Notes under the pieces: generated by a model
What the model was told of the DNA's origin: nothing
Database searches by the model: none
The model's input: only the letters and a program-made list of their open reading frames with translations
Shown: piece after piece, positions 846 to 17,399 of the stretch
Numbering within the stretch: position 1 is the first letter of the stretch
Layout of the letters: every line of letters starts with the position of its first letter
From: a virus
Strand: one strand, 5' to 3'
Virus record (IMG/VR): IMGVR_UViG_3300009506_000076
Span: 1-42,086 of that record
Length of the DNA stretch: 42,086 bases
Translations under genes and position numbers: made by a program

Positions 846-2953
846 GGTGGCGGTAGAGTGGTGACGAAGAAGAATGTTCCGGTAGGGTACGGAGAAGGTA
901 CTTCTGAACCACTATCCCAATTCACACCAACCTGAAGCTCGACAGCACTTGCACCAGATCCTTGATCTACCTTAACGGTTCCATCTTTTTCACGAATCTT
1001 TCGTGCATAGAATTGTGACGTTTCTGCACCGCCACCGTCGATAAATGCAGGTTCGTCAACAGTCACAAGATCCGCCGGTTCGCCTACATGGCCCTGGAAA
1101 CCGTCATACGGATAGACTGTACCGGTTTGGTTCATACCACCGATAACGCCTTCGATAATACCTGCCTGACTTGGTACGACTGTCCAGGCACCTTCTCCGC
1201 CACCGAAATCGAATCGGCAATATGTCACTTTATCAGAAGCACAAACGTAATGTAGATCCTGTGTGACTCCGGTTGTGCCGTCTCCGTTGTCGATAATACG
1301 ATTCTGAAGCCAGGCTGCTGTGAACGCTATGAGATTACGTGACGGACCAATACATAGCAGTATCGGTTGTGAACGAGGAGCTGCTTCCTGATCCGTATCC
1401 GTCGTCGACGTAGTGTCGAAGGCGTATGCGAATATGTACAGCAACTCCCCGTCCAGGAGTGGCGTGATATCAGAAGCGTAGGTTACGACCTGAAGAAGCT
1501 CATCGAACGTGGTACTGCCGAACTCATCGTTTGCCGCGTCGTCGAAGTCCGGTGGCGCATATGCAGGCGGGTCGGTACTGAGCGCCTTTACGAATTTGAC
1601 ACGGTACGACTGAGCAAGATTGTTGAGTCTCTTAGCCGTCATCGAAACCGAGTTGTCATCCTTGGAGATCGTAGCGTGGATCTCCGCCATCGGTTTGAGA
1701 ACAGCTTCGTACGAGAAGGCAAGATTGCGCCAAGTACCGAGCCCTGCTGTGGGCACACCACGCACTCCCATCGACGAAGACGCCTTGAATGGCGCTATAT
1801 TGATGGTCATGTTGAATGGCGCAAACTGCTGGTTGCTGTCGAACATCCGATCCCTATTGGTGAATGTGTAGAGATCGGTACTCATCTCGGCAAAGACGAG
1901 AGGACGTGAAGACACAGTAGCAATCGCGTCCGGATCGGCTACGTCCGAAAGCGCTGCTGTGATTAGAGCGTTCGCGTCTGTATAAGAACGCACTGGAGAG
2001 TCTTCGTTCAGTGCAATCCAGAATGGACGGCGAATTCCGTAGGCTCCACCATACTTCGCCAAGCTGGCAGAGTCCTCGTAAGGTCCGATGAGCTGCTGTA
2101 CACCGTCAGTATCGTAGTAGAGCAGATACCCGGCATTCCGTACCTCATCCTCACTGATCGACAGGGCGTCAAAATCCCACCAGTGGCTCAGAGTCATGTC
2201 TGACGAACTTTTGGACCGTGCTGGCTCAAAGAACGTCAGTTCAACAGGATTCTGTCCGCGGTACCTGAAGAAGCATACCCAGCCCATCGCCTGCGCCAAT
2301 GACCACAGTTGATCCCAAACCGTCTTCTGGAGTCCTGGCGCCCAGTCGTTCGGTAGCACTTTTCCGGTGGCGGCCGGGAAGTATAGCGGGATACCGGTGA
2401 AACCGTTATTGTCGAGTACGGCGCGTGCTGCCGTCTCAATGCTAGTACCTGCGGCGTAGGTGTAGGCGACCTCGCTCTTCTGTATCTTCAGAATACCACC
2501 GAGGTCGCTGCACTGAACGCTGCCCTGGCGCGATTCAAACTTCGGCCAGTTCACGTTTGTGATGAAACCCTTGAAGACTTGGTACCAGAGCGATGAGGCA
2601 TCGCCGGGACGGGTTCCGCCGACAGCAGTGAGAGCAACATCTAACGTGACAACTCGCCCAAGCTGGAGCAACGGCGAGTATGTGACTGTGTCGTCCAGCT
2701 TGTTGAGGCTGCTTGCTGCGATAGTTGGTGCGAGTGAGGTACTCGACCCGTCTTTAGTGAACTCGCGTACGAAGGAGAAGTCGAGGCTTCCGATTGGTTG
2801 GTTGGGGTCTGGCAGGCGAAGGCTAATTTGGAAACATCTCGTAGTGATATCGATAGCTGTACTGCTACCGTTATCTACTTTGAGCCGCCAATGCGTGTCG
2901 TAACTCTCACTCGTGTAGAGTGCAAGAGTCGGAGCGTCAACACCAGACCTCAA
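842..2953 (-). CDS. Tail hub / baseplate-like minor tail protein
   Basis: 703 residues, directly downstream of the tape measure gene with a TTGA overlap, so translation starts at TTG (2953-2951). The position after the tape measure is where siphophages encode the distal tail and tail-hub proteins. The N-terminal 150 residues are beta-rich (QISLRLPDPNQPIGSLDFSF), followed by a segment reminiscent of hub proteins that handle a local reference frame (FKGFITNVNWPKF, IETAARAVLDNNGFTGIPL). The last 150 residues are Gly/Asp rich and could lead to a receptor-binding part. No peptidase motif is visible. The assignment rests mainly on gene order and length; the exact family is not recognised. Confidence 0.55.
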   Translation of the reverse strand: MRSGVDAPTLALYTSESYDTHWRLKVDNGSSTAIDITTRCFQISLRLPDPNQPIGSLDFSFVREFTKDGSSTSLAPTIAASSLNKLDDTVTYSPLLQLGRVVTLDVALTAVGGTRPGDASSLWYQVFKGFITNVNWPKFESRQGSVQCSDLGGILKIQKSEVAYTYAAGTSIETAARAVLDNNGFTGIPLYFPAATGKVLPNDWAPGLQKTVWDQLWSLAQAMGWVCFFRYRGQNPVELTFFEPARSKSSSDMTLSHWWDFDALSISEDEVRNAGYLLYYDTDGVQQLIGPYEDSASLAKYGGAYGIRRPFWIALNEDSPVRSYTDANALITAALSDVADPDAIATVSSRPLVFAEMSTDLYTFTNRDRMFDSNQQFAPFNMTINIAPFKASSSMGVRGVPTAGLGTWRNLAFSYEAVLKPMAEIHATISKDDNSVSMTAKRLNNLAQSYRVKFVKALSTDPPAYAPPDFDDAANDEFGSTTFDELLQVVTYASDITPLLDGELLYIFAYAFDTTSTTDTDQEAAPRSQPILLCIGPSRNLIAFTAAWLQNRIIDNGDGTTGVTQDLHYVCASDKVTYCRFDFGGGEGAWTVVPSQAGIIEGVIGGMNQTGTVYPYDGFQGHVGEPADLVTVDEPAFIDGGGAETSQFYARKIREKDGTVKVDQGSGASAVELQVGVNWDSGSEVPSPYPTGTFFFVTTLPPP

Positions 2954-5913
2954 AAGACCTCACTATCCGCTACCGACACGCGACCACCCCTTGCGCGTCT
3001 AGCGTTAGCCGCAGTTTCGATCTTCCCAAGGAGCACTTCGCCGGAGTCGCCAGCCTCGTTGACGATTGTGATACCTCCGTTGACAGTCCACGAGTTAGAC
3101 GGCTCTGGAGGCTTCGTACGCTCCCAGTCGTATTTGTTCGGCAAGTTGGTGCCGTAATGACCGTACTTCTGCTCGTAGTAGATGATATCCATCGCACGAG
3201 GGAAGTCGGTCGTGATCTGCAGAATAGACTCGGACAGAGCGTCGAAAGCGTCCTTGGTGTTCAGGATAGCGTCAAGAAGTTCGTTCTTATCAGCAAAAGC
3301 ACCTAGAAGCTCCGGAGTCAGCTCACCCTGGAGAATCAGGTTGAAGATATCACGTAGGCCGGCAAGCAGTGTCGCGCGAGCTTCAGGCGAGTTGAGATCG
3401 AGGTTCGCCAGACCCATCTGCTTTATCAGGTCCGGAGCTAGCTCGGACAGAACCTGATAGGCATCCTTCAAGCTCTGCAACGGAGTATCCGGAACGTCGA
3501 AGAGCTTGTTGTAGGCGTTGATACGTGACGTGACATCCGTCAAGTTGTTGCCGAACTGCGTAAGCTGGCGGACAGTCTCTTGTACAGCCTCGATTAGCTG
3601 GCGGAAAGCTTCCGTCTGGAACTTGCCCTCCTCGTCGGTCACCTTAATTCCCGTCAACGACTCCATGCGATGAATAAGGGCGACCATTTCAGGCCAAGTA
3701 GTCTGCCACTGCTTCCAAGCATTGTCGGTCGGCTTTGGGCCGCCAGCGCTCTTCCAAACTTCCTGAAAGCGTAGCACGTCAGCATGTGGACGACCCTCGA
3801 AGCTGTCTCGCATTTCCTTCAGCGCCTGCGAGTTCTCTGCGAGTAGCTTTTGCTGAGCCTCAAGAGCCCTACGAAGCTCTTCTTCTTTCTCGTTACGCTT
3901 GCCAAGAGCTCCGATCAGACCACCGATGGCCCCAACAGCGCCACCGACGATCGCTCCAGGCACACCACCGATCTGCGCACCAACAGCAGCACCACCAAGC
4001 GCACCTCCGAAGAAGCCGGTGACCGGATTTGTCGTTTGCGAACCGATCATGTTGCCGACCATATAGGCCGACAGAACGATACCGATCTGCTTACCGATCT
4101 CTTTTGCCCACTTCCTGCCGGACTCATACTCGAGTGTTAGTTCGACAGTCTGTCCGGTTTCAGGCGTGATTCCAGTTTCGCCCAAATGTGATTTGGCTTG
4201 TTCGACAGCTGCGGCTTGCTGTTGATTGAGTAGCGCACGCTGCGCATTTGTGCCGAAGATATCACCAAGCGCCTGTTGAATAGGCGCTCCGATAGACTCC
4301 ATCATCTTAGCCGCAGCCATCTCAGCTACAAGCCGGAAGAACAACTTCTTAATGGCATCGAAAAGGTCTCCAAAGTTCTTCAGCCCGTCGTTCAAGATCT
4401 TTTCGAAGACGTCGCCAAAGGCACGCTGAAGATTTTCGGCAAACCGGTCGATGATCTTTTGGTATTCCTTCCAAGCCGCCTCGGCTTCTTTTAACTTATC
4501 CTTGATGCCAAGCGCCTCAAGGGCAAGTTCACGTTCTTTCAGGATGGCTGCTTCGTAGGTCGGTAGTAGAGCATTGTCCATGTACTCTCTACGAGCTTCG
4601 ATAAGCTTGTTGACAGCCTCGAAGTTGACAGCCATCCGCTCTTCTTCAAGGCCGGTAAGGCCAGAAAGTACAACACCCTGATGCGCCTTACGGAGCATGT
4701 CGTCAATAATAGCCTGAAGCTTATTCTCTTCGCCACCTCCAAGAATACCGTTACCTAATGCGTCATCAAGATTGGCGTTAGCGTTGATCCACGCCTCTGT
4801 CATCTTGGTAATTTCTTCTAGTGCCTTCTTGTATACCAGAACACCCACTGTCAAAGCGGCCAGGGTGACACCGATCTTAATGAAGTCGGCACTCACCAGC
4901 TTGAGGAAGTACCCAATACCGACGAACTTGCTTACTACCTTATAGAGCTCGATCCAACGCGCGATAGCCTGAACGCCAATCACGAGCTGTTGCGCAATGT
5001 ACACACTGATAAGCGCGGCCCTATAAGCAAGAATCATGCTGGTGAGCGAAATCAACCCGGCAATGACTTTGTCGATATGCTCAGCCATATAACGCAGCGC
5101 ACGGCCGAGATCACCGCTAGCACCGGTCCCCATATTGATGATACCGACCATGCGAGTGATAGCATTGATCAGTACCTCGAACGACTGACCGACAGTCCAA
5201 GTCATCTTCTGAGAACGCTCGACAAGCTCGTCATGCTTCTTCAAAAGGGCGTCAATTACGGTCTGTACATCGACCAATCCCTTCTTTGAGAGCTTGTAGA
5301 GATCGCCCATAGCCACACCCATCTCGTCAGATACCGCACGAGCAACCATCGGCATGGCTTCCATCATGGTACGGAACTCGTCACCCTGGACACGCCCGGA
5401 ACCAAGAGCCTGTGCAAACTGCCGCATCGCCTGGGCAGACTCTACTCCCGTCGCACCAGAGATAAGCATGGCCGCGTTAACTGCCTCGACAACGTTCAAC
5501 AGATCGTTATGACTACGACCAAGCTGATCCGCGTTGAGTGCGACACGGGTATAGAGTACGGATGTCGCAGCAAGAGTGTTACGAGTTTTCTGCGAGATTT
5601 CGAACAGGCGTTGCTGAACAGCCATCGCTTGCTCGTCACTCTTAGTAACGAGCTTGACACGAGAGTTGATCAGTGTCCAGGTATCGGCATACTCGACAAG
5701 CTGGCGAACACCAAAGTATCCACCAAGACCAGTGAGCGTGCGAGTCAAGTTCTTGGTAGTACGCTCAAAGTGCTCTGTCGCTCGCCCTGCATTGGTGGCA
5801 GACGCAGAGAACTTATTCATGGTAAAGATTGCTCCACCAGCTGTGACGCCGATATTTACCGTCGCCAGCTTGGAAAGCAATCCACCTGCGCCTGTTCCGC
5901 CGCTACGCGCCAT
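2950..5913 (-). CDS. Tape measure protein
   Basis: 987 residues, the second largest gene of the window. It sets tail length and is threaded inside the tail tube. The region of residues 40-240 matches the tape-measure N-terminal domain: the stretch around LVEYADTWTLINSRVKLVT, then TRVALNADQLGRS, QFAQALGSGRVQGDEFRTMM and KKGLVDVQTVIDAL are typical. Hydrophobic segments follow at about 280-370 and a Gly-rich hydrophobic segment at about 630-680 (AVGAQIGGVPGAIVGGAVGA), the usual membrane-active part. Long helical stretches with Gln/Glu/Lys lie between them. The start ATG has an AAGAGAAAGA ribosome site and overlaps the end of the chaperone reading frame by 11 bases. Confidence 0.93.
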   Translation of the reverse strand: MARSGGTGAGGLLSKLATVNIGVTAGGAIFTMNKFSASATNAGRATEHFERTTKNLTRTLTGLGGYFGVRQLVEYADTWTLINSRVKLVTKSDEQAMAVQQRLFEISQKTRNTLAATSVLYTRVALNADQLGRSHNDLLNVVEAVNAAMLISGATGVESAQAMRQFAQALGSGRVQGDEFRTMMEAMPMVARAVSDEMGVAMGDLYKLSKKGLVDVQTVIDALLKKHDELVERSQKMTWTVGQSFEVLINAITRMVGIINMGTGASGDLGRALRYMAEHIDKVIAGLISLTSMILAYRAALISVYIAQQLVIGVQAIARWIELYKVVSKFVGIGYFLKLVSADFIKIGVTLAALTVGVLVYKKALEEITKMTEAWINANANLDDALGNGILGGGEENKLQAIIDDMLRKAHQGVVLSGLTGLEEERMAVNFEAVNKLIEARREYMDNALLPTYEAAILKERELALEALGIKDKLKEAEAAWKEYQKIIDRFAENLQRAFGDVFEKILNDGLKNFGDLFDAIKKLFFRLVAEMAAAKMMESIGAPIQQALGDIFGTNAQRALLNQQQAAAVEQAKSHLGETGITPETGQTVELTLEYESGRKWAKEIGKQIGIVLSAYMVGNMIGSQTTNPVTGFFGGALGGAAVGAQIGGVPGAIVGGAVGAIGGLIGALGKRNEKEEELRRALEAQQKLLAENSQALKEMRDSFEGRPHADVLRFQEVWKSAGGPKPTDNAWKQWQTTWPEMVALIHRMESLTGIKVTDEEGKFQTEAFRQLIEAVQETVRQLTQFGNNLTDVTSRINAYNKLFDVPDTPLQSLKDAYQVLSELAPDLIKQMGLANLDLNSPEARATLLAGLRDIFNLILQGELTPELLGAFADKNELLDAILNTKDAFDALSESILQITTDFPRAMDIIYYEQKYGHYGTNLPNKYDWERTKPPEPSNSWTVNGGITIVNEAGDSGEVLLGKIETAANARRARGGRVSVADSEVF

Positions 5914-7108: not shown

Positions 7109-8104
7109 CTAGGAGTGCGCCACCGGAGTGCCGGTGCTCGTATAGATTTCGACAGCGTTGTGGTAGCCGATGGGGTATGACCCCGTGAACTGCCGCATCT
7201 CGACCTTCGCGGCGTTGCCACCCAGGAAGGGGGCGTCGATGTCGGTGATCTTGACACGAGGAAGGCGAATCATCCACGTCAGCCGCGCGCCGGTACCGGG
7301 AGCCAGCAGCTTGGCGTAGATTTCGAACTCCGTTTCGGCATCGAAGTCCGCCAGTGCCGCCAGGTCTTGCCGCACTGCCCCGATACTTCCCGTGACCTTG
7401 ATGCGGTTCATGTAGACGTCCGGACTGACGAACGTTCCGATGACGTCCTGGGTCGCTGCGGCAATGGCGAGGGAGATGTTCAGGCCAGTGCAGACGAGAA
7501 GCTGCGCCGAGTCGTAGTAGATGTAGGCATTGTCGACAATGAGAGAATCGCCGGCTACCTCGGTCGGGTTGGTGAAGTAGGGCGCCGAGGCCGAACCGAC
7601 GATCTGTCGATCGACGCCCTGGAAGGTCCAGGTTGCACGTCCACGTGCGCGTGGCTGAAGCGCGAGGTCCAACTGCGTATTGCGGACACCGATGAAGAGC
7701 TCCGAGTCGTCGATGTCAGAGTCGTTCTGCTCAACCGAGTAGGAGTAGTTGACCGGAGTGGCCGGCGTCTCCACCTTGGCGAGCTGAGTGTCCGCGTCGT
7801 ATGCTGTGTCGGCCAGGGCACCGAGCGTTCCACGCAGCATGGACTCGCACAGGAGATCGAAGAAGTCGCCTGGGACGATCGGCGTCTCGTACGAGCCATT
7901 CACGTTGGCTCCACCGAGGACGTCCATCGGCTCAATCTGATCGGGACGTCTCTCGTCGTCTGTGATTGGGGCACGGGTGTACTTGAGGCCCGGGCTGTCG
8001 TAGAGCCGGATACGCGACCCGCCGGCACCGGAAGAAGCTGGTGTCCCGAACGTCGTCTCCCGCTTGAGCGACGCAATCACGTGCTCCGCAGTCTGATTCG
8101 CCAT
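7109..8104 (-). CDS. Major tail protein (tail tube)
   Basis: 331 residues with a good ribosome site (GGGGGAACAG before ATG). The opening (MANQTAEHVIASLKRETTFG) with the following PGLKYTRAPITDDERRPDQ is typical of a family of siphophage tube proteins that begin with a conserved hydrophilic arm. VNGSYETPIVPGDFFDLLCE and TWTFQGVDRQIVG are also characteristic of tube subunits of the larger, two-domain type. Placement between the tail terminator and the chaperones supports the call. It polymerises as hexameric rings around the tape measure. Length is normal for tube proteins carrying an additional surface domain. Confidence 0.85.
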   Translation of the reverse strand: MANQTAEHVIASLKRETTFGTPASSGAGGSRIRLYDSPGLKYTRAPITDDERRPDQIEPMDVLGGANVNGSYETPIVPGDFFDLLCESMLRGTLGALADTAYDADTQLAKVETPATPVNYSYSVEQNDSDIDDSELFIGVRNTQLDLALQPRARGRATWTFQGVDRQIVGSASAPYFTNPTEVAGDSLIVDNAYIYYDSAQLLVCTGLNISLAIAAATQDVIGTFVSPDVYMNRIKVTGSIGAVRQDLAALADFDAETEFEIYAKLLAPGTGARLTWMIRLPRVKITDIDAPFLGGNAAKVEMRQFTGSYPIGYHNAVEIYTSTGTPVAHS

Positions 8105-8113
8105 CTGTTCCCC

Positions 8114-8767
8114 CTAGATTGGATTGCTTGTCTCCGCGTAAAGCGGGATCGTGATGGAGACTTCGACCGTTCCTGCGTACCGGGAGAGCACCTGGCCTCG
8201 GAAGGGTCCGGGATCCGTTCCCACACGAACAATATCACCTGTTTCCGGGATGATCGCAAGTGTCGGTGGGAAAGCTTCCATGATCTTGCGCGCTACCGTA
8301 TAGATAGCGTCCGCTCCTGTTCGCGATACGCCTTCGAGCCGAATCACATAGGCTGGCTCTTGCTCTACTATGCCTCGTTCTCCAACTCCGTACTTGTTCT
8401 GTACGCCAGGCAGATAATCCTCACTAATGAACCAACGGCGTGCCTGCCGCTCGAGGTCCGTATTCTCCCAGTTGCGCAATACCGGTATGCCCACAGTGAG
8501 GGAGCGCCCTGCGCCGGCAGATTCCACTTGGTTTTCGTCTGTTTCGAGTGTCAGGGCGTACACCCGAGTAATGAGCACTGGCACGTTGCTCGTAAACCCG
8601 CTGGGTACGACCTCCATACCCACTACAAAGCCGTCGGCGATAAAGCTGCCTGTCGTGCGTGTATACCCCGTTCCGGTCGCCGCCAGGGTGGTTGCCCCGG
8701 TAGTGGCGACCTCCACGGTTAGCAGCTGCGTCCGCAGGGCGCGAAGTAATGCGAGATCGTCGATCAT
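8114..8767 (-). CDS. Tail terminator / tail completion protein
   Basis: 217 residues, overlapping the preceding gene by ATGA and ending 9 bases before the major tail protein start. The N-terminus (MIDDLALLRALRTQLLTVEVA) and the C-terminal beta strands (FRGQVLSRYAGTVEVSITIPLYAE) fit the fold of lambda gpU-like terminators, which cap the tail tube and contact the head-closure ring. Residues about 25-100 form a Thr/Gly-rich insertion (ATTGATTLAATGTGYTRTTG) not usual in short terminators. The assignment is from gene order and general features. Confidence 0.6.
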   Translation of the reverse strand: MIDDLALLRALRTQLLTVEVATTGATTLAATGTGYTRTTGSFIADGFVVGMEVVPSGFTSNVPVLITRVYALTLETDENQVESAGAGRSLTVGIPVLRNWENTDLERQARRWFISEDYLPGVQNKYGVGERGIVEQEPAYVIRLEGVSRTGADAIYTVARKIMEAFPPTLAIIPETGDIVRVGTDPGPFRGQVLSRYAGTVEVSITIPLYAETSNPI

Positions 8768-9204
8768 AGCGGACCCGAGGCAAAGCGGCCAGTAGCGGCA
8801 TCACGCCAAGCACCGCCCTTGTAGACGATGGGTTGACTTCCAGCGTGAAGCTGCTCTAACTCGTAAGTTACGATGCGATGGAACCCCATTACCGTCATCT
8901 TCACACTATGGAATCCGCCAACCGAAGACCGAAGTGTGGCTCCACGTAGGTTATCTTCGATGATCGGCGCGTAAGGAACCTGCGTATAGATGCTAATATT
9001 CTTAGAACGCGCAGTGCCTTGTCTGCGCCAAGATTTCAGCAATCGACCAGTCTTTACAGGCTGTCCTGGTGCTCCCGTGATTGGGCTGCCGACTGTAATT
9101 GAGCGGAAACAATGCTCTGCGACAGCGTCGTATAGGTCATCGAATCCTATACGGATATCACGAACGATGTCCTCCATCTGTTGCTTGAAGGACAGGGTAC
9201 TCAC
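8764..9204 (-). CDS. HK97 gp10-like neck / tail completion protein
   Basis: 146 residues beginning with GTG that overlaps the upstream stop (GTGA). The segment VGSPITGAPGQPVKTGRLLKSW is the hallmark of the gp10-like minor head/neck family, where a Gly/Pro loop precedes a conserved TGxLxxSW. Further features are YAPIIEDNLRG and the C-terminal GAWRDAATGRF. These proteins act at the head-tail interface between stopper and terminator. Gene order (stopper, gp10-like, terminator, tube) is exactly the usual one. Confidence 0.72.
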   Translation of the reverse strand: MSTLSFKQQMEDIVRDIRIGFDDLYDAVAEHCFRSITVGSPITGAPGQPVKTGRLLKSWRRQGTARSKNISIYTQVPYAPIIEDNLRGATLRSSVGGFHSVKMTVMGFHRIVTYELEQLHAGSQPIVYKGGAWRDAATGRFASGPL

Positions 9205-12200
9205 TTGAGGAGTACCTCGGCTGCGATTGCTGTGCCGGCAGGACGATATGGCATCACGCCACCAACGGTGAGCTTCTTACCGCTCCAGCTCACGTTCATG
9301 TCCAGTTCGGGAAGATCACCAATGTTGGTCGGCACGAAGAGTAGGATCACGTACACGTCCGGGATCAGCTCGACTCCCTCGTACTGCGACTCCTCGCGTG
9401 GGATCTCGACAGCATACCCGGAGATAGTGATCGATGTGGGGCCAGAGGTCCACTCACCTGTCTCAGGATCGTATGTACCTTCGTAAATCTTTATGAAGTC
9501 GACAGCCGTGCCATGCTTCTGGACCTTGCGCAGCGCCTTCTGGTATGCGGCCATCGAGGATCTCGGAATGGTGAGGACCCTAGTCTTTACTGTCGACTCC
9601 AAGGTCAACATCGGCAAGGACAGGGACGCCGTACCCTCAATATAGACGGTTCCGGCGGCGCTCGCAACGAGAGCTGGCAGAACAACACCGATGCGCTGGC
9701 GTGCCCCGAAGTCGGCAGTGAGTGCCGGCAATACAGCAACGAGGTCACCGCGTGTCGTGGTGTATCCCGCGGCGTCAATCGTCAACGCCGGAAGCGCAAT
9801 AACGATATTGCCGCGATATGTGCCGATTCCAGAAGCCGAAGATACCAGCGCCGGCAGCGTGATATCGAAGCTTCCCTGAATAGCTGTTTCGGAACTGAGG
9901 TGCGCTGTCAGTGCTGGCAGCACCAGAGTTGTAGAACCGGCAACAAGTACGGCACCACTCAGGGTGGCACCGAGGGCAGGTAGTACCAGATCGGCTGTGC
10001 CAACCTCGGGTAGAACACCGGCACTCGTAATCGTCAGTGCGGGCAGAGTAACTGCGAGCTGGCCGAAAGCTTCGGCACCGCCCGTGCTAGCACCGGTAGC
10101 GGCAAAGGTGAGTACAGGGAGGGCAACACCGATATCACCAGCGATCGGAGCGGTCCCGGCGAATGTCCCTGTGAGCGCCGGGAGAAGCACGTTGCCAGCA
10201 CCGGCTACGGGCGTATTTCCGTTGGCGGACAGGGACAGGGTGGGTAACGTAAGAGCCGTATCACCGGATACCTGGACAACACCTGCGGTGCTAACGGTAA
10301 GCGCCGGGAGTGTGATGTCGGCTGTACCGACAGCAACACTGGACGAGCTTAAAGTCGCCGTCAACATCGGCAGTACAAGGGTAGCCGTACCGTCAATGTC
10401 CACAGTGGCAGCGGCACTTGCTGTCAAGGCGGGCAGTACGATCGTGGCATCGCCCGCGACTAAAGCCTCGCCAGCCGACGCGAACGTAAGCGTCGGTAGC
10501 GTAAGGGCTGTCGATCCAACCGCTAAGACTTCACCGACCGCAGCAAGCCCAAGTGTGGGCAATGTGAGGTCGGTAACACCTTCAACAAGAACAGCACCAT
10601 CAGCAGATACAGCGAGTGCCGGAAGAACTATCGCGGAGGTGCCTATAATACCAGAAGTAACGACTCCGGTACCACTAGCAAGTAGAGCTGGAAGTGTAAC
10701 GCCAAGGTCACCATCTATATCAACTGTACCTGCGATCGACGCTGTTAGCGCCGGAAGTGTAAGAGCCGCGTCTCCATCTACAAGTAAGGCTCCTGCAAAA
10801 GCTAGTGTAAGTGCAGGCAGATCGGCAGTAAGTCCTCCGGTGATTTCTGCTGCTGCGGCCGTCGTGTTGACAGCCAGGAAGTACGCGGTTCCCACGCCTC
10901 CGCTGATGAGCGCCGTCTGGATACACATCATACGGAACTCGATGCTGTCGGCCCCGACGAGATTGCTCGTCGCGTAGTTGTACCTGTTCGTCCACGAGCC
11001 GGGATTGCCACTCCCATCATCCGGGGCGGTGTCGCAATAGATCGTGCCACCGGACTCACGGATTCTCAGCCATGCGTGGTTCGTCGCGCTATAGGTCGTG
11101 TACCACGGGTTGCTCCACGACCCGCTGATCCGCGTGTTCACCTCCAAGTTCCCGTTGTTGAACGCGAACTGAAGCTGATACCCGGTATCAGCCCTCGCCT
11201 CGATCAACGCGGTGGAGTCTGGATCGGTCGAAAAGTCAGACACGTCCAGTCGGACGACGACCTCACTCCCCACGAGGTCGAACTGATCATTCGAGTATAC
11301 CCACGGATACGAGGTTGCCGTCGTGTCTCCGGGGCTGATCTCAAGCTGCCCGTTCTGCTCGACTATCGACGCCCCAGCCACGAGCGTGCCGTTGATTGCG
11401 TCGCCAGACGACCACAGCGCGGAATCGATCGTGCCATCCTCGAAGTCATCCACCAGATTTTCGAGGAGATCATAGCCGACAGTACCAGCACTGCTGCTTG
11501 TCAGTGAAGGCAAGGTAACCGCAAGAGATCCATCATTCTGTACAGCACCGGCGAGACTCGATGTTAGTGCAGGCAGCGTAGCAGCAAGATCGCCGGCGAG
11601 TGCTGTCGCTGCTGTCGTGTTGACGGCTAGGAAGTACGTCGTACCTACACCGCCCGAGATTAGAGCATCCTGCGTGGCAACGATGTGGATGTCAACACTC
11701 TCTATTCCAACAAGATTTGAAGTTGCGTAATTATACCGATTCGTCCACGAACCGGGATTGCCGCTTCCATCATCGGGTGCTGTATCAAGATAAATCGTAC
11801 CACTGCTTTCACGGATACGAAGCCAAGCGTGGTCCGTGGCGCTATAGGTCGTGTACCATGGATTGTCCCATGATCCATTAATCCGACGGAGAACGTTCAG
11901 AACACCGTCGCTGTAGCTCCACTGGATCTGGTAACCGTCGTCGCCCTTGATCTCAAGCAGTGAGGAGCAGTCGGGATCGACCGCGAAGTCCGACACGTCC
12001 ATCCGCCAGACAATCTCGCTGCCTGTCGCGTCGTAGAGACACTTCGAAATCAAACGCGGGTAGGAGACAGCCGTGGTGTCTCCTGGGCTCATCTCGACCC
12101 GCCCGTTCTGCTCTACAACTGACGCGCCACTCTTGAGCCCACCGCCCAGCGCATCATCAACCGTCCACTGCCAGCCAATTGAACCATCTTCGAAGTCGTC

Positions 12201-12887
12201 AACGACGTCCGCAAGAGGTATAATCGTGCTGCCGGCAATAGAACTCGTCAGCGCTGCAAGCGTAAGCGCCAGAGTACCCACAATGGGGAGGACTCCTGTG
12301 CTCGCCATTGTGAGTGCAGGCAACGCAACTGCTGTATCGCCAACTACATCGACGGTACCCGCGGACGCCATTGTGAGCGCCGGCAAGGTAGCAACGATGT
12401 CGCCAGAGATAGGACCGGCCGTGCCATCGGGGATCTCAAGCTCAGCCCAGGAGGTAGTGAGGTAGTTGCCTGCCGTTGCAGATGTTTGCGACACACGAAT
12501 ACGCAAGTCCGTCCAATCGGAGATAGCAGCAATCTCGCCAGCAGACAGAGTATGCGTATACTCTGCGAACGATGTTGTAAGAGTGCTGTTACTGATCGAT
12601 TCGGAAAAGATTTGCGTAGAGCCTTGGTATAGCTCCCACGTTCCGGCAAGCGCCTTGTTCGTTGCATTGACTTTGAGCCGAATGCGAACGATATGCGTAC
12701 CAGATCCAGGGTCGTTCAGCGAGGAGGTGAGTGCGACCTCGAGGGTGGCAACAGAGTTCGCAGCAGCAACTGCATAGTCGCCGTCGTCGTAAGATGCTTC
12801 GTCAAGTACAGCAAATAGATCAGTACCAGTCGACGGCGACCAGTTGGTCGTCGTGACATCACTGATCGGTCTGCCGTACTGAGTCAT
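9201..12887 (-). CDS. Giant repeat protein with C-terminal head-closure (stopper)-like domain
   Basis: 1228 residues, the largest gene of the window. Residues 1-155 form a beta-rich domain (NWSPSTGTDLFAVLDEASYD, then TSWAELEIPDG) like carbohydrate-binding jelly rolls of virion appendages. Residues about 162-222, 431-472 and 684-1101 contain 25 copies of a 21-residue unit, consensus G(D/T)xxLTLPALTxSxAGxVxV. Two near-duplicate domains at 228-427 and 477-677, starting VDDFEDG, resemble concanavalin A/LamG-like lectin folds. The last ~124 residues (FIKIYEGTYDPETGEWTSG to VMPYRPAGTAIAAEVLLK) have the pattern of siphophage stopper proteins and stand where the stopper gene belongs. I infer a neck protein carrying a long decorated arm. 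Ribosome site AAGGTGT precedes ATG. Confidence 0.65.
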   Translation of the reverse strand: MTQYGRPISDVTTTNWSPSTGTDLFAVLDEASYDDGDYAVAAANSVATLEVALTSSLNDPGSGTHIVRIRLKVNATNKALAGTWELYQGSTQIFSESISNSTLTTSFAEYTHTLSAGEIAAISDWTDLRIRVSQTSATAGNYLTTSWAELEIPDGTAGPISGDIVATLPALTMASAGTVDVVGDTAVALPALTMASTGVLPIVGTLALTLAALTSSIAGSTIIPLADVVDDFEDGSIGWQWTVDDALGGGLKSGASVVEQNGRVEMSPGDTTAVSYPRLISKCLYDATGSEIVWRMDVSDFAVDPDCSSLLEIKGDDGYQIQWSYSDGVLNVLRRINGSWDNPWYTTYSATDHAWLRIRESSGTIYLDTAPDDGSGNPGSWTNRYNYATSNLVGIESVDIHIVATQDALISGGVGTTYFLAVNTTAATALAGDLAATLPALTSSLAGAVQNDGSLAVTLPSLTSSSAGTVGYDLLENLVDDFEDGTIDSALWSSGDAINGTLVAGASIVEQNGQLEISPGDTTATSYPWVYSNDQFDLVGSEVVVRLDVSDFSTDPDSTALIEARADTGYQLQFAFNNGNLEVNTRISGSWSNPWYTTYSATNHAWLRIRESGGTIYCDTAPDDGSGNPGSWTNRYNYATSNLVGADSIEFRMMCIQTALISGGVGTAYFLAVNTTAAAAEITGGLTADLPALTLAFAGALLVDGDAALTLPALTASIAGTVDIDGDLGVTLPALLASGTGVVTSGIIGTSAIVLPALAVSADGAVLVEGVTDLTLPTLGLAAVGEVLAVGSTALTLPTLTFASAGEALVAGDATIVLPALTASAAATVDIDGTATLVLPMLTATLSSSSVAVGTADITLPALTVSTAGVVQVSGDTALTLPTLSLSANGNTPVAGAGNVLLPALTGTFAGTAPIAGDIGVALPVLTFAATGASTGGAEAFGQLAVTLPALTITSAGVLPEVGTADLVLPALGATLSGAVLVAGSTTLVLPALTAHLSSETAIQGSFDITLPALVSSASGIGTYRGNIVIALPALTIDAAGYTTTRGDLVAVLPALTADFGARQRIGVVLPALVASAAGTVYIEGTASLSLPMLTLESTVKTRVLTIPRSSMAAYQKALRKVQKHGTAVDFIKIYEGTYDPETGEWTSGPTSITISGYAVEIPREESQYEGVELIPDVYVILLFVPTNIGDLPELDMNVSWSGKKLTVGGVMPYRPAGTAIAAEVLLK
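9585..10838 (-). repeat. Coding tandem array, 20 of the 25 63-bp units
   Basis: Units 6-25 of the LPALT repeat in the giant neck protein, each about 63 bases encoding 21 residues. The core xLPxL is kept in every unit while flanking residues vary, and DNA copies are diverged, so the array is old or recoded and under protein-level selection. Units vary by only a few residues in length, the longest carrying the insert STGGAEAFG. Confidence 0.85.
10857..12206 (-). repeat. Duplicated lectin-like domain pair inside the giant neck protein
   Basis: Two copies of a ~200-residue domain (coded at 12206-11607 and 11459-10857) share long identical stretches such as DTAPDDGSGNPGSWTNRYNY and NPWYTTYSAT, with differing DNA. 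They are separated by two LPALT units. This is an internal segmental duplication. Copy two has an extra Cys in GTIYCDTAPDD. Confidence 0.85.
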
Positions 12888-12890
12888 GGC

Positions 12891-13514
12891 TTACACCTTG
12901 TGGAACAGCGCCGTGACTTGGATCGTGCCCTTGCGTAGCAGCCGCGGTTGCACGGGCAGCGACGCTCGCTGCTCGATTGGGATCGGCAGGAACTCAAACG
13001 GGCACGCGCCTGCGGTCGAGCCGTCCGTCTGCTGCACGACGTACCCGTTGTACAGCCAGTACGTGCAGATCGTCGCCGATTCGTTGATTGAGGTCAGCCC
13101 CACCGGGAACTGCCAGATTATCTCCCCAGGATGCGAATCTGGAAACCAGCCGCTAACGACCTGATTCACCTGCTGCGCGACCACCCATATCTGGACGTCG
13201 CCACCGCCCTGACCCACGGTCTTCTTCAGCAGGATCAGCTTCGCGCCCAGCGCGTCCGGCTCGATCAATACCGCAGTCGTGTCCGATGCGCCCCAGGTCA
13301 GGATCGCGCTGACGGGATCGCCAGCCGAGTCCTGCGGGTGCGCGACGACCTGCACCGTGTCGCCGACGTGGTACGGGCCATTCGACAGCACGTCGAGCGT
13401 GACGGCCACCAGATTGCCCTCGATCGTGATCGTCACGGTATCGGTAGCAGTCTGCCCGGCGGCCGGGACCGCCAACACCAGCGCGGCCACCATCGCCAGC
13501 AACAATCTCTTCAT
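12891..13514 (-). CDS. Secreted Ig-like domain protein
   Basis: 207 residues. The N-terminus MKRLLLAMVAALVLAVPAAG is a classic signal peptide (basic start, hydrophobic core, small-residue cleavage region before Gln). Residues about 24-115 look like a bacterial Ig-like (Big) domain: TVTITIEGNLVAVTLDVL, DTVQVVAHPQDSAGDPV, AILTWGASDTTAVL. The C-terminal part contains ATICTYWLYNGYVVQQTDG and two cysteines that could pair. The start overlaps the sigma factor stop (ATGA) and the stop lies 3 bases before the giant neck protein, so it is co-translated with both. A secreted protein here is unusual; it could modify the host surface (exclusion) or decorate the virion. Function not known. Confidence 0.7.
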   Translation of the reverse strand: MKRLLLAMVAALVLAVPAAGQTATDTVTITIEGNLVAVTLDVLSNGPYHVGDTVQVVAHPQDSAGDPVSAILTWGASDTTAVLIEPDALGAKLILLKKTVGQGGGDVQIWVVAQQVNQVVSGWFPDSHPGEIIWQFPVGLTSINESATICTYWLYNGYVVQQTDGSTAGACPFEFLPIPIEQRASLPVQPRLLRKGTIQVTALFHKV

Positions 13515-14368
13515 GACGCCTCCTTACAGTGAAATTCCTCGAATACATGGCGCCACCGCTTGCCTGTCTTAATCAGCGATAGCTGGCCTTCGGACAGCCC
13601 AATGCTGGCAGCGATCTCCTTCTGCGTCTCCTCACCGGACAGTAGCCGACGATGGATCATGCGGACGTGCTCCTCGTCGATCTTGCGCCGTGCGTTGCGT
13701 CTCCCATCAACCGGCCGGCGGCGTCTCGGAGTGGGTACGACGGAGACGGTCACGCCATAGTGGCGGCGTAGCTTGTCGAGCGCCTTCAGAGACACGGTGG
13801 ACGCGCCACTGGCGGTCAGCCCGTAGTCCCGGGACACATCGGCCGCGGTTCGCTCCTCAGCGTACCGACCCCAAACCAGCCCCCGCTCGCGCTCGGGCAG
13901 CACGGTCAACGCAAACTGCACATGCGCGGCCTCGTCTGCACGGACAACTTCATCCAGGGGAGACGGGGAGGGATCGCCAAGAACCTCGTGCAGTTGCAGC
14001 CCGACCTCGCTCGAGACGGCGCTCTCAAGGCTCATGGCAGGCAACATTCGGCGCGCTCGATACCCGTCGACGACGCGCCGCCATATCACGGTCGACGCGA
14101 ATCCGGGGAACCCGCCCCTAGCAGGGTCGTACGCGTCAACCGCCTCCACGACGCCGACCATCGCATCGGCGCGAGCGTCGTCCAGCTCCTGCACCCGCAG
14201 GTCGACCCTGGCATCCATGCAGCGGACCACCCACATCGCCAGCCGAACGTGCCCGAGTATCAACCTCTCTCTGGCGTGCGCGGATCCACATTGACGGTAC
14301 TCGCGGAATAGCTCGGCGACTTCGGCTCGCAACAAGCGCCGATACTGGAATGTACTACTCTGGCTCAT
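13511..14368 (-). CDS. RNA polymerase sigma-70 family factor with extra C-terminal HTH
   Basis: 285 residues. Residues about 31-105 correspond to sigma region 2 (RERLILGHVRLAMWVVRCMD, then DAMVGVVEAVDAYDPARGGF and ASTVIWRRVVDGYR). Residues 151-206 correspond to region 4 (LPERERGLVWGRYAEERTAA, DYGLTASGASTVSLKALDKL). An additional helix-turn-helix at about 229-275 (TQKEIAASIGLSEGQLSLIK) is of the type found in phage DNA-binding proteins and homing enzymes, joined by an Arg-rich linker. Region 3 is short or absent. It probably redirects host RNA polymerase to phage promoters. It lies within the head-tail operon, overlapping its neighbours on both sides (14 bases and ATGA). Confidence 0.88.
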   Translation of the reverse strand: MSQSSTFQYRRLLRAEVAELFREYRQCGSAHARERLILGHVRLAMWVVRCMDARVDLRVQELDDARADAMVGVVEAVDAYDPARGGFPGFASTVIWRRVVDGYRARRMLPAMSLESAVSSEVGLQLHEVLGDPSPSPLDEVVRADEAAHVQFALTVLPERERGLVWGRYAEERTAADVSRDYGLTASGASTVSLKALDKLRRHYGVTVSVVPTPRRRRPVDGRRNARRKIDEEHVRMIHRRLLSGEETQKEIAASIGLSEGQLSLIKTGKRWRHVFEEFHCKEAS

Positions 14369-14669
14369 TTGGCGTCACAGACTTCGCCTTCTGAGCCGCA
14401 TGGATGGCAAAAGCCATTGCGGCCGAGGCTGCCGCTTCCATCTTGTCCGGTGTGATCAGTTGTAGGTCGGTGGGAAGCATAACATTCAGCTTCTCACCGA
14501 TGACTGTGATCACAAAAGCGATCGTCGCAGCCACAAACCGCTGCTTCGTTGGTGATAGCCTGCCGACCCAGGTCTGCACCTTCTTCAGCCAGTCCATGAG
14601 CGGTACAGTCAGCATGGCAGCGACGAGCGGGAGGGCCATATCGAGGTATTGCACCAGAAGATCAGGCAT
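14355..14669 (-). CDS. Small membrane protein, holin-like
   Basis: 104 residues beginning MPDLLVQYLDMALPLVAAML; ATG at 14669 is preceded by a GGGAGC ribosome site. A much longer open frame extends upstream but is low quality, so this start is preferred. Hydrophobic segments at about 8-26, 44-56 and a weaker one at about 78-92 (AAASAAMAFAIHAAQKA) suggest two or three membrane helices with a charged C-terminus, which is compatible with a holin, but no endolysin is adjacent. It overlaps the sigma factor start by 14 bases. A small membrane anchor of other function is equally possible. Confidence 0.55.
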   Translation of the reverse strand: MPDLLVQYLDMALPLVAAMLTVPLMDWLKKVQTWVGRLSPTKQRFVAATIAFVITVIGEKLNVMLPTDLQLITPDKMEAAASAAMAFAIHAAQKAKSVTPNEPE

Positions 14670-14728
14670 GCTCCCATCTCCGTACAGTAGAGCGAGGGCC
14701 GTGAGAGAACCCACGGCCCTCACAGACG

Positions 14729-15154
14729 TCAGCTTGCAGGCATCGTCACCGTTGCCGTACTGATCGTGACCTGCTGACCAGCTGCGATGCTGGTGTTGTC
14801 CAGCTCGAGATCGCCACCACCGCTGGTGGCCGTGACCGATCCCTCGATCCGCTCGTCCGTCGTACCAGTCGCACCACCCGTATCGCCGGACTGCTTGATA
14901 CGGAAGTGCGCCGCGGTGCCGGCAGCGTCGGCCGAAGCGTCCTGCCACGTACCGTTCAGCGAGAGCTGACCGTTGCCGCTCGACGGACCCGTGAAGCAGT
15001 CCGCTGGGAGGGTGATCGAAGCCAGAAGCGTACCCGCATCGGCCGCGTTCGCGCCCGGAGCCGCTCCCGTCCGGATCTCGAGCACCCCGTTGTTGAAGAT
15101 GTCCGTCGCCGTGGCAAGGACATCCCGGAGCGCACCAGAGATTTCGAGTGCCAT
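14729..15154 (-). CDS. Small virion-type protein (beta-rich)
   Basis: 141 residues, ribosome site CGGAGGTAAC before ATG. Opens MALEISGALRDVLATATDIF and continues VLEIRTGAAPGANAADAGTL, a pattern that recurs in siphophage proteins of the head-tail region annotated only as structural or hypothetical. The rest is rich in Gly, Thr, Ser and Ala with alternating beta strands and few charges, so it is probably a capsid or tail surface protein. It sits between connector genes and the membrane-protein/sigma cassette. No catalytic motif. Confidence 0.6.
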   Translation of the reverse strand: MALEISGALRDVLATATDIFNNGVLEIRTGAAPGANAADAGTLLASITLPADCFTGPSSGNGQLSLNGTWQDASADAAGTAAHFRIKQSGDTGGATGTTDERIEGSVTATSGGGDLELDNTSIAAGQQVTISTATVTMPAS

Positions 15155-15160
15155 GCTGCG

Positions 15161-15439
15161 TTACCTCCGGAAAGAGCCCCGAATGGGGGGCAGGTTCTTG
15201 GCCGCCTTCCAGCGGGCATCGGCGAGCTGAATCAGCGCCTTCTGCTCGTCTGTCAGGGAAACACCGAGGTCCTTCTTCTTCTCGAGCAGCATGGCATAGA
15301 GCATACCCTGCCTGCTCATACCCTGCTTCTCCCACACCGCCCACATCTCCTCCAGCGCCTCGTCGCTCTTGGCCTCGGCGATGGCGGACTCCTTCGCCTG
15401 CTTGGATGTGAGTGCAGCGTAGTCGACCTTCTTCGCCAT
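15161..15439 (-). CDS. Small helical hypothetical protein in the head operon
   Basis: 92 residues, ribosome site AAGGAG before ATG at 15439. Highly charged and helical (ALTSKQAKESAIAEAKSDEA, LLEKKKDLGVSLTDEQKALI), ending NLPPIRGSFRR. It ends 6 bases before the next gene and starts 11 bases after the adaptor-like gene, so it is part of the head operon. I do not recognise the family; a connector accessory or chaperone role is possible but unproven. Confidence 0.65.
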   Translation of the reverse strand: MAKKVDYAALTSKQAKESAIAEAKSDEALEEMWAVWEKQGMSRQGMLYAMLLEKKKDLGVSLTDEQKALIQLADARWKAAKNLPPIRGSFRR

Positions 15440-15450
15440 GGTCGTCTCCT

Positions 15451-15882
15451 TCAGTAGTCGAAATCGAGAGAGGTTGTTCGCGACGGGATACCAACGGGCG
15501 CCGCCGTTGTGGGCACTGCGGCAAGAAGAGCCCGATACTCGTCGAAATACTCGTTCGCCTTGTCGAGCAAGGCATCGCGTTGATCCTTCGAGTACGACTG
15601 ACTACCGATGACCGCTACCTGCGCGTTGTCGATTGACGGTCGCGCCACGGCCACCATATATGCCGCAGAAAAGGCTAGATGTAGCGCCCACGCCTTGTCC
15701 GCAGCGTCTTGATCGGAAAAGCCGATAGGAGTGTTCTTCGCCTCGGCCTGATCGATGTACTCCTGGAGCCGATCCTCCAGGATCGTGTTCGGAGGATTGT
15801 CACCCTCGACGTCTTCACCCTCGAACAACTCCGGTTCGATCGGGCCGACCGGAGAAAGCAGATCCGCGGGTGTGATCGCCAT
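15451..15882 (-). CDS. Head-tail adaptor (connector)-like protein
   Basis: 143 residues. Ribosome site GAGGAGTAAC precedes ATG. The helical core (LEDRLQEYIDQAEAKNTPIG, AWALHLAFSAAYMVAVARPS, LLDKANEYFDEYRALLAA) has the length and layout of gp6/gp15-type adaptors that form the ring under the portal. The position downstream of the major capsid protein and upstream of the stopper-like region agrees. The sequence similarity is only at the level of overall pattern. Confidence 0.55.
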   Translation of the reverse strand: MAITPADLLSPVGPIEPELFEGEDVEGDNPPNTILEDRLQEYIDQAEAKNTPIGFSDQDAADKAWALHLAFSAAYMVAVARPSIDNAQVAVIGSQSYSKDQRDALLDKANEYFDEYRALLAAVPTTAAPVGIPSRTTSLDFDY

Positions 15883-16334: not shown

Positions 16335-17399
16335 TTACACGCCGGCGTCGATGACGAACAGCACCTGCTCGTTCGGATCGGGCATGGGGTTGAACTGACC
16401 CTCGACGGTCAGCTCACGGCCGCCGTTCCCGATCTCATGGTAGATCGTGATCCCACGCACGTCGATGCCGGCCTGCGGCACCTGCGAGCTGAGGTCCCAC
16501 GCACGAACGACCGGAGCGAACGCCGTGGACCCCACGACGTTGCCGGCAGGCACCGCGGCGACCATCTGCTCCGGCCACACGTTCACGGACGACCGCGCGA
16601 TCCCACCGTCGGTATACGGCTCGACGGTGTTCTCGTTGATGAAGAACCGGAACGGGCGACCCAGCTCGTCCTGGATGCGCTGCTCGACCTGAGTCACGGT
16701 CGGCGTCAGGCCGGCGATGGCGCCAGCCATGGGGTTCGGCGCATCGGCGACGATGACGTTCCTCGTGGAGAGGCGCATCATCGCACCGGCCTGCGGCCCG
16801 CACGCCGCGAAGGCGTCCTGGAGCCAGGCCAGGAACTCGTCGTAGGCGTTGAGTCCCGCATCGTCCCAGGCGGTCGCCGCCGTCTGGTACCGAGTGGCAT
16901 CGAACCCGTAGTCGACGGTCGTGGTGAGTCCCGTCTGCGGGTTCATGTACGTGATGGTCCCGTTCGCCCAGGCGGACATCACGTCCAGCTCGAGCCGGCG
17001 GTAATTCGCGATCGCCAGCATGTCCGTGCGGTCCGGGATACGGGCCGCGATGATGTTGCGGAAGAGGGCCTGGTTACCCCGGACCTCGTTCAGGAGGTCG
17101 TTGATCTCCTTCTCCTCGAGCTTGAAGTATCCCTCGATCGGGATCCACTCGAGCTCTCGGGTCGGGGGCGTCACGAGGTTGATCAAACGACCCCTGGTGT
17201 TCCACTCACGCCGGTCGGTCACGATCCGCACATCCTGGGTCGTGAGCGACGACAGCTTCGTCATGTCCACATTGCGCCGTGGCATGAAGATGTCCCACAG
17301 AAGCCGACCCTGATCCGTCGGGTCGACCGTCTGTGCGCGGACGGTCAGAGCTGCCGGCGTCAGCTCCTCGGCCGCGGCCATCCAAGTGAAGTCCGGCAT
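16335..17399 (-). CDS. Major capsid protein (lambda gpE family)
   Basis: 354 residues, the usual length for gpE-type capsid proteins with the HK97 fold. Typical features are the start of the conserved arm (GRLLWDIFMPRRNVDMTKLS), REWNTRGRLINLVTPPTREL, KEINDLLNE, and the C-terminal VVRAWDLSSQVPQAGIDVRG with PNPMPDPNEQVL-like ending. A gpD-like decoration gene lies just upstream, as expected for this family. Start ATG is preceded by GGAGAAGCGGCA. The shell is formed around the scaffold protein encoded two genes upstream. Confidence 0.9.
   Translation of the reverse strand: MPDFTWMAAAEELTPAALTVRAQTVDPTDQGRLLWDIFMPRRNVDMTKLSSLTTQDVRIVTDRREWNTRGRLINLVTPPTRELEWIPIEGYFKLEEKEINDLLNEVRGNQALFRNIIAARIPDRTDMLAIANYRRLELDVMSAWANGTITYMNPQTGLTTTVDYGFDATRYQTAATAWDDAGLNAYDEFLAWLQDAFAACGPQAGAMMRLSTRNVIVADAPNPMAGAIAGLTPTVTQVEQRIQDELGRPFRFFINENTVEPYTDGGIARSSVNVWPEQMVAAVPAGNVVGSTAFAPVVRAWDLSSQVPQAGIDVRGITIYHEIGNGGRELTVEGQFNPMPDPNEQVLFVIDAGV

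Follow-up and report, generated by a model that had tools for sequence, protein, structure and literature searches.

The window, i.e. the whole stretch of DNA analyzed here, corresponds to a 42,086-bp virus record of IMG/VR, the minus strand of which carries a siphovirus-type structural block (terminase, capsid, tube, tape measure). All the window genes described below are located on this strand. The block includes the genes of the major capsid protein (16335..17399; PHROG_29, E=2.6e-9; 80% identity in the related contig L011), a probable adaptor (15451..15882), the major tail (tube) protein (7109..8104; PF18906, E=2e-19) and the tape measure (2950-5913). A probable tail terminator (8114..8767), which matched no Pfam or PHROG family, was assigned on its position only, the same slot being occupied in relatives. 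The gp10-like neck/tail-completion gene (8764..9204; PHROG_5, tail completion or Neck1, E=0.007) is conserved in about 80 relatives, and directly upstream of it lies an open frame encoding a protein of 1,228 amino acids (9201..12887). The ATG of this long frame adjoins the stop codon of the preceding gene, and its own stop codon overlaps the GTG of the gp10-like gene.

From the N- to the C-terminus, this protein consists of a beta domain (residues 1-160; 12408..12887), three LPALT repeats (at positions 168, 189, and 210; 12222..12410), a first lectin domain (residues 224-435; 11583..12218), two further repeats (at positions 438 and 459; 11466..11582), a second lectin domain (residues 475-687; 10827..11465), a stalk consisting of repeats 6-25 (residues 688-1104; 9576..10826), and, adjoining the stalk, a stopper or head-closure (Hc1, gpFII-like) domain (residues 1112-1228; 9204..9554). 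The 20 units of the stalk have a period of 21 with a few indels. A sequence-only reading of the window had announced 25 LPALT units and a duplicated lectin-like domain of about 200 residues, and both were recovered here. Exactly 25 L[PA]xL units were counted, 19 of the 24 spacings being of 21 residues, which is far above the numbers of matches obtained in the shuffled protein (mean 1.2, maximum 6), and the two lectin copies, each of about 210 residues, show 65% identity and a dN/dS of 0.15.

The lectin and stopper domains were modelled separately, since an alignment of the 1,200 residues placed lectin rows on the stopper. The AlphaFold2 model of lectin copy 2, which was based on six sequences and has a core pLDDT of about 60-78, matched GH16 glucanases, with a Z of 15.9 over 183-185 residues. 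Legume-type lectins and the CBM2 of the evolved Dit of phage J-1 (E 3.8e-6) were matched as well, and a concanavalin-A-like (jelly-roll) fold is supported by this model. Since the GH16 catalytic motif E-x-D-x(x)-E was found nowhere in the protein, even in a relaxed form, the lectin domains are expected to bind rather than cut sugars. For the LPALT repeats, strands were predicted with a low confidence (pLDDT 30-58), and any shape attributed to the stalk they may form is a guess.

The N-terminal beta domain matched residues 447-606 of the tail-tip proteins of several relatives (L006/L018/L036, L035, and L032; phmmer i-E 4e-12 to 4e-8), where it comes after a conserved region spanning the first ~412 residues. 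No match to this domain was found in the 703-aa tail-tip protein of the window itself. Host-facing modules thus appear to move between the neck arm and the tail tip. The domain shared by window positions 12408-12887 and L006:15141-17969 might reflect a swap between these two sites.

The identity of the C-terminal domain was assessed on the basis of sequence profiles, predicted fold, and gene position. PHROG_161 ('head closure Hc1') matched the full protein with E=2e-4 and the isolated domain with E=3.5e-6; the same family was matched by 56 of 70 stoppers from relatives. A direct scan of viral contigs using the 128-aa C-terminus yielded no matches; the relatives were gathered via their tail-tube, capsid, and gp10 neighbours. 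A profile built from stand-alone stoppers only (n=69) detected the window domain with E=1.5e-30 and no other among the 540 ORFs of the window. The Pfam family Phage_attach (PF05354, lambda gpFII) was matched by 15 of the 70 relatives at E<=0.01, but not by the window domain. The AlphaFold2 model of the domain (70 sequences) reached a pLDDT of 91 and shows the beta-barrel/sandwich with an N-terminal helix typical of stoppers. Its best PDB matches were phage stoppers and neck proteins, namely those of T1 (Z 9.8 over 114 residues), phiCD508 (9.4), lambda (FII, 8.0-8.1), and SPP1 (gp16, 6.7), and the entries ranking just under them were other phage neck proteins. Two phage neck proteins were also retrieved, below significance, when the stopper profile was run against the PDB sequences. 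The matches obtained in a phmmer search of these sequences with the stopper (kelch-type and other unrelated proteins) were regarded as due to chance.

The C-terminal 117 residues of the 1,228-aa ORF are thus solidly identified as a phage stopper. The sequence-only reading, in which the last ~124 residues were given this role, would have been contradicted by a different fold or by a stopper gene elsewhere: the predicted structure has the stopper fold, and no second stopper was detected in the 42-kb record, which may be incomplete, with the stopper profile, PHROG_161 or PF05521. Nor was any other stopper found in the records of two relatives described below, L021 (36 kb) and L096 (70 kb). The sole detectable stopper of the window record is thus encoded by ORF 9201-12887, at the C-terminal end of a long arm.

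The location of the gene is that expected of a stopper gene, as had been claimed. In L006, L007, L008, and L011, the capsid proteins of which are 69-80% identical to that of the window, the slot before the gp10-like gene is occupied by a free stopper ORF of 118-120 aa showing 30-44% identity to the window domain. The fusion likewise lies immediately upstream of the gp10-like gene, while the adaptor-like gene is located further upstream, several genes apart. This probable adaptor was assigned by its position, as it adjoins the stopper in relatives, and shows 41-48% identity to the ORF that L006, L008, and L011 carry immediately 5' of their free stopper. No genes separate the two in these three contigs, whereas in the window they are separated by the interval 12891..15439, which includes a virion-protein gene (14729-15154; PHROG_3758) and a holin-like gene (14355-14669). 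A sigma-factor-like gene (13511-14368; PHROG_351, E=4e-14) is also found here, within the head-neck structural operon. The gene immediately before that of the arm-stopper protein (12891-13514) encodes a 207-aa protein with a signal-peptide-like N-terminus and no match to any Pfam or PHROG family.

Two genes might have been joined in this single metagenomic record by an assembly artefact, through the loss of a stop codon or through chimerism. This was rejected as highly improbable, since a repeat arm fused to a stopper was found in six other IMG/VR contigs, two of which (L096 and L097), from different metagenome records, carry an ORF of identical length (859 aa, at positions 5365-7944 in L096). 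The gene order on either side of the fusion also agrees with that of the relatives. The four other fused ORFs occur in L021 (5379-7622; 747 aa), L068 (3-1781; 592+ aa), L080 (3899-6901; 1,000 aa), and L094 (3390-6455; 1,021 aa). The close relatives are metagenomic. Extensions of 90-270 aa preceding the stoppers of L034, L041, L043, L087, L088, L095, L108, L109, and L118 were not counted as fusions, because they are Arg-rich low-grade frames, most of which have a plausible start at the stopper.

In all six of these contigs, the arm is followed by two tandem stoppers with linkers of 16-21 residues, and a further contig, L056 (1209-2426), carries three stopper domains and no repeat arm. The region between the first strands, which in known stoppers is the hairpin contacting the tail or the tail terminator, is missing in the second copy of L021 and in the second and third copies of L056. 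The arm repeats of the other fused contigs are unrelated in sequence, with periods of 20, 24, 24, and 20 (21 in the window); LPALT repeats and recognizable lectin domains fused to a stopper were seen in the window only. Fused forms are distributed over at least two clades of the tube-protein tree, one consisting of the window and L021 (SH-aLRT 98) and the other of L068/L080/L094/L096, with L056 beside. The stopper-arm fusion has at least two origins, involving unrelated repeats. Since the L021 copies fall outside the supported clade containing the other tandem copies in the stopper tree, and L056 was duplicated again, tandem duplication occurred more than once. A 316-aa protein encoded upstream of the fused stopper gene looks alike, by eye, in L021 (4429-5379) and L094 (872-1822), and its presence in both fused clades suggests a common accessory cassette.

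Whether the fused gene yields one long chain or a separate stopper is a question on which the start codons and the selection patterns both bear. The stopper might be freed from the arm, through internal translation or proteolytic cleavage. In that case, free stopper would make up most of the ring, while the arm would either be a separate virion protein, such as gp13 of Streptomyces phage Hiyaa, or be carried by only a minority of the stoppers. The window has an in-frame ATG at residue 1112 (9552..9554), near the point at which the free stoppers start, tandem stoppers could belong to a polyprotein, and in some Streptomyces phages (see below), the arm has a gene of its own at almost the same location. 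The Shine-Dalgarno match at this ATG is weak (GAGA), however, and an additional free product starting there is possible but unsupported. All six of the other fused contigs lack an ATG at the arm/stopper boundary, and the GTG or TTG present there in L068 and L094 has no convincing Shine-Dalgarno sequence, so that these genes are unlikely to yield a free stopper. No conserved cleavage motif was apparent by eye in the linkers. In the one pair of relatives compared (L094 and L096), the whole arm-stopper frame is under purifying selection, with dN/dS values of 0.08 in the N-terminus, 0.21 in the repeats, 0.20 at the junction, 0.14 in stopper 1, and 0.24 in stopper 2, i.e., the linker and both stoppers are selected as one frame. 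We consider the release of the stopper to be rather unlikely, while giving it more weight than the other alternatives discussed here.

On the whole, the data are best explained if the stopper is the head-closing base of long neck arms, which is probably the case. About six copies of the fusion chain would assemble as the stopper ring beneath the adaptor. The T1 stopper is a hexamer in which the N-terminal helix (residues 1-17) surrounds the adaptor beta-hairpins from the outside (PMC11945409), and the SPP1 connector has the composition gp6(12) gp15(12) gp16(6), the stopper being again a hexamer (PMC9701221). The figure of twelve arms put forward in the sequence-only reading is thus not supported: stoppers of this fold form hexamers in the solved structures, so that six arms are expected. 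By analogy, the most likely number per virion would be six, or three in the case of the tandem stoppers, where the six positions would be filled by three two-domain chains, or by two three-domain chains, giving fewer arms. If the N-terminal helix of the stopper lies outside the adaptor barrel, as it does in T1, the ~1,100 N-terminal residues of each chain would extend outward from the neck, at the level of the adaptor, as a beta-rich LPALT stalk. This stalk would bear the two concanavalin-A-like lectin domains and, distally, a beta domain of the kind otherwise present at the tail tip. The covalent fusion would secure one arm per stopper without any need for a separate collar protein. The placement of the arms on the virions, their stoichiometry, and their sugar binding are inferred from these comparisons.

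Arms at the neck have been described in other phages. The lactococcal NPS (TP901-1, 936 group) consist of long neck arms ending in carbohydrate-binding modules, which are thought to aid host contact (PMC6669499), while the way they are attached to the neck is not known (PMC10747895). The arm proposed here would resemble them in combining length, location at the neck, and carbohydrate-binding modules, but the NPS is a separate, dispensable protein with an N-terminal BppU-like anchor and a coiled-coil stalk (PMC6669499, PMC10747895). In the window, there is no separate gene, the candidate anchor is the C-terminal stopper rather than an N-terminal domain, and the linking repeats are of beta type, being modelled as strands and not as helices. 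T4 whiskers (wac), the XM1 collar spikes (gp40), and phi29 gp12 are likewise fibres or spikes of the collar or neck (PMC10491603), but these are separate neck-bound proteins, as neck fibres usually are, whereas the window arm belongs to the same chain as the protein of the head-closing ring.

The closest unfused counterparts were found in the Streptomyces phages Hiyaa (gp13) and Galactica (gp11), in which the genes of the adaptor and the stopper come directly after that of a protein of ~1,100 aa annotated as 'minor tail protein' and containing a lectin domain and repeats. The concanavalin-A-like domain of this protein is homologous to that of the window, and long arrays of short repeats come after it as well, but the stopper is encoded by a separate gene two places downstream. 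In L080, the gene of the stopper-fused arm is directly preceded by that of a 792-aa free repeat-arm paralogue (1517-3895), which resembles it in the type of its N-terminal domain and repeats. Unfused arms such as these are possible precursors of the fusion.

A structural ring protein carrying a lectin-like module of matching fold is also found in the evolved Dit and the CBM extensions of the major tail protein (J-1 Dit CBM2, 5ly8), which, however, sit at the tail tip or on the tube, whereas the module in the window would sit on the genome-gate ring. The window's C-terminal 117 residues resemble the known stoppers (SPP1 gp16, lambda gpFII, T1 gp44; PHROG_161, PF05354) in terms of their profile, fold, gene position, and single copy in the record; the known stoppers are, however, free proteins of ~110-130 aa, while that of the window terminates a chain of 1,228 aa, and those of relatives are also duplicated or triplicated in tandem. 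Stoppers and neck whiskers are already known, as are ring proteins (Dit, tube protein) decorated with CBMs. What is new with respect to the literature and phage records searched is a stopper which itself anchors a long arm, along with tandem stoppers in one chain. In agreement with the sequence-only reading, which knew of no described example, a protein search of 50,697 phage records detected neither stopper-arm fusions nor tandem stoppers among isolates; neither of them was found in the literature searched, which is weak evidence, as it mostly excluded subscription journals.

The role of the arm is inferred by analogy. As has been proposed for the lactococcal NPS with CBM tips, host adhesion is the simplest role for the present arm, which would bind host-surface glycans and aid reversible adsorption, like neck whiskers. 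It might instead be a strap stabilizing or decorating the capsid or the tail, or a fast-evolving filler, given that the repeats differ completely between the fused lineages (periods of 20, 21, and 24) and that lectin domains are recognizable in the window only. This is an improbable explanation, slightly more so than the release of the stopper, since the two concanavalin-A-like domains have been conserved after their duplication (dN/dS 0.15), the N-terminal module also occurs in tail-tip proteins, and the L094/L096 repeats are under purifying selection. The most speculative proposal, to which we give a little less credence still, is that the fusion couples host sensing to the genome gate: the glycan-gripping arms would pull on, or report to, the DNA-retaining ring, and tandem stoppers would make this ring three-fold or two-fold, thus setting the number of arms.

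If the stopper is indeed the base of neck arms, a covalent chain would be a simple means of fixing both the number and the position of the arms. The tandem stoppers offer naturally occurring dimers and trimers of a ring protein, each made of one chain, which are useful for testing its stoichiometry and the opening of the gate. In addition, repeat-rich genes annotated as 'tail fibre' in the stopper slot may conceal a stopper. Two further observations were made on the relatives. In L085 (479-1153), a 224-aa ORF combines PF05521 (Phage_HCP) with a gpFII-like Phage_attach domain, i.e., two different head-completion folds. Lastly, a distant relative of the neck module with a free stopper (L104) was found in a Gemmatimonadetes MAG (DAHUXM010000034.1), which provides a lead as to the host of this phage group.
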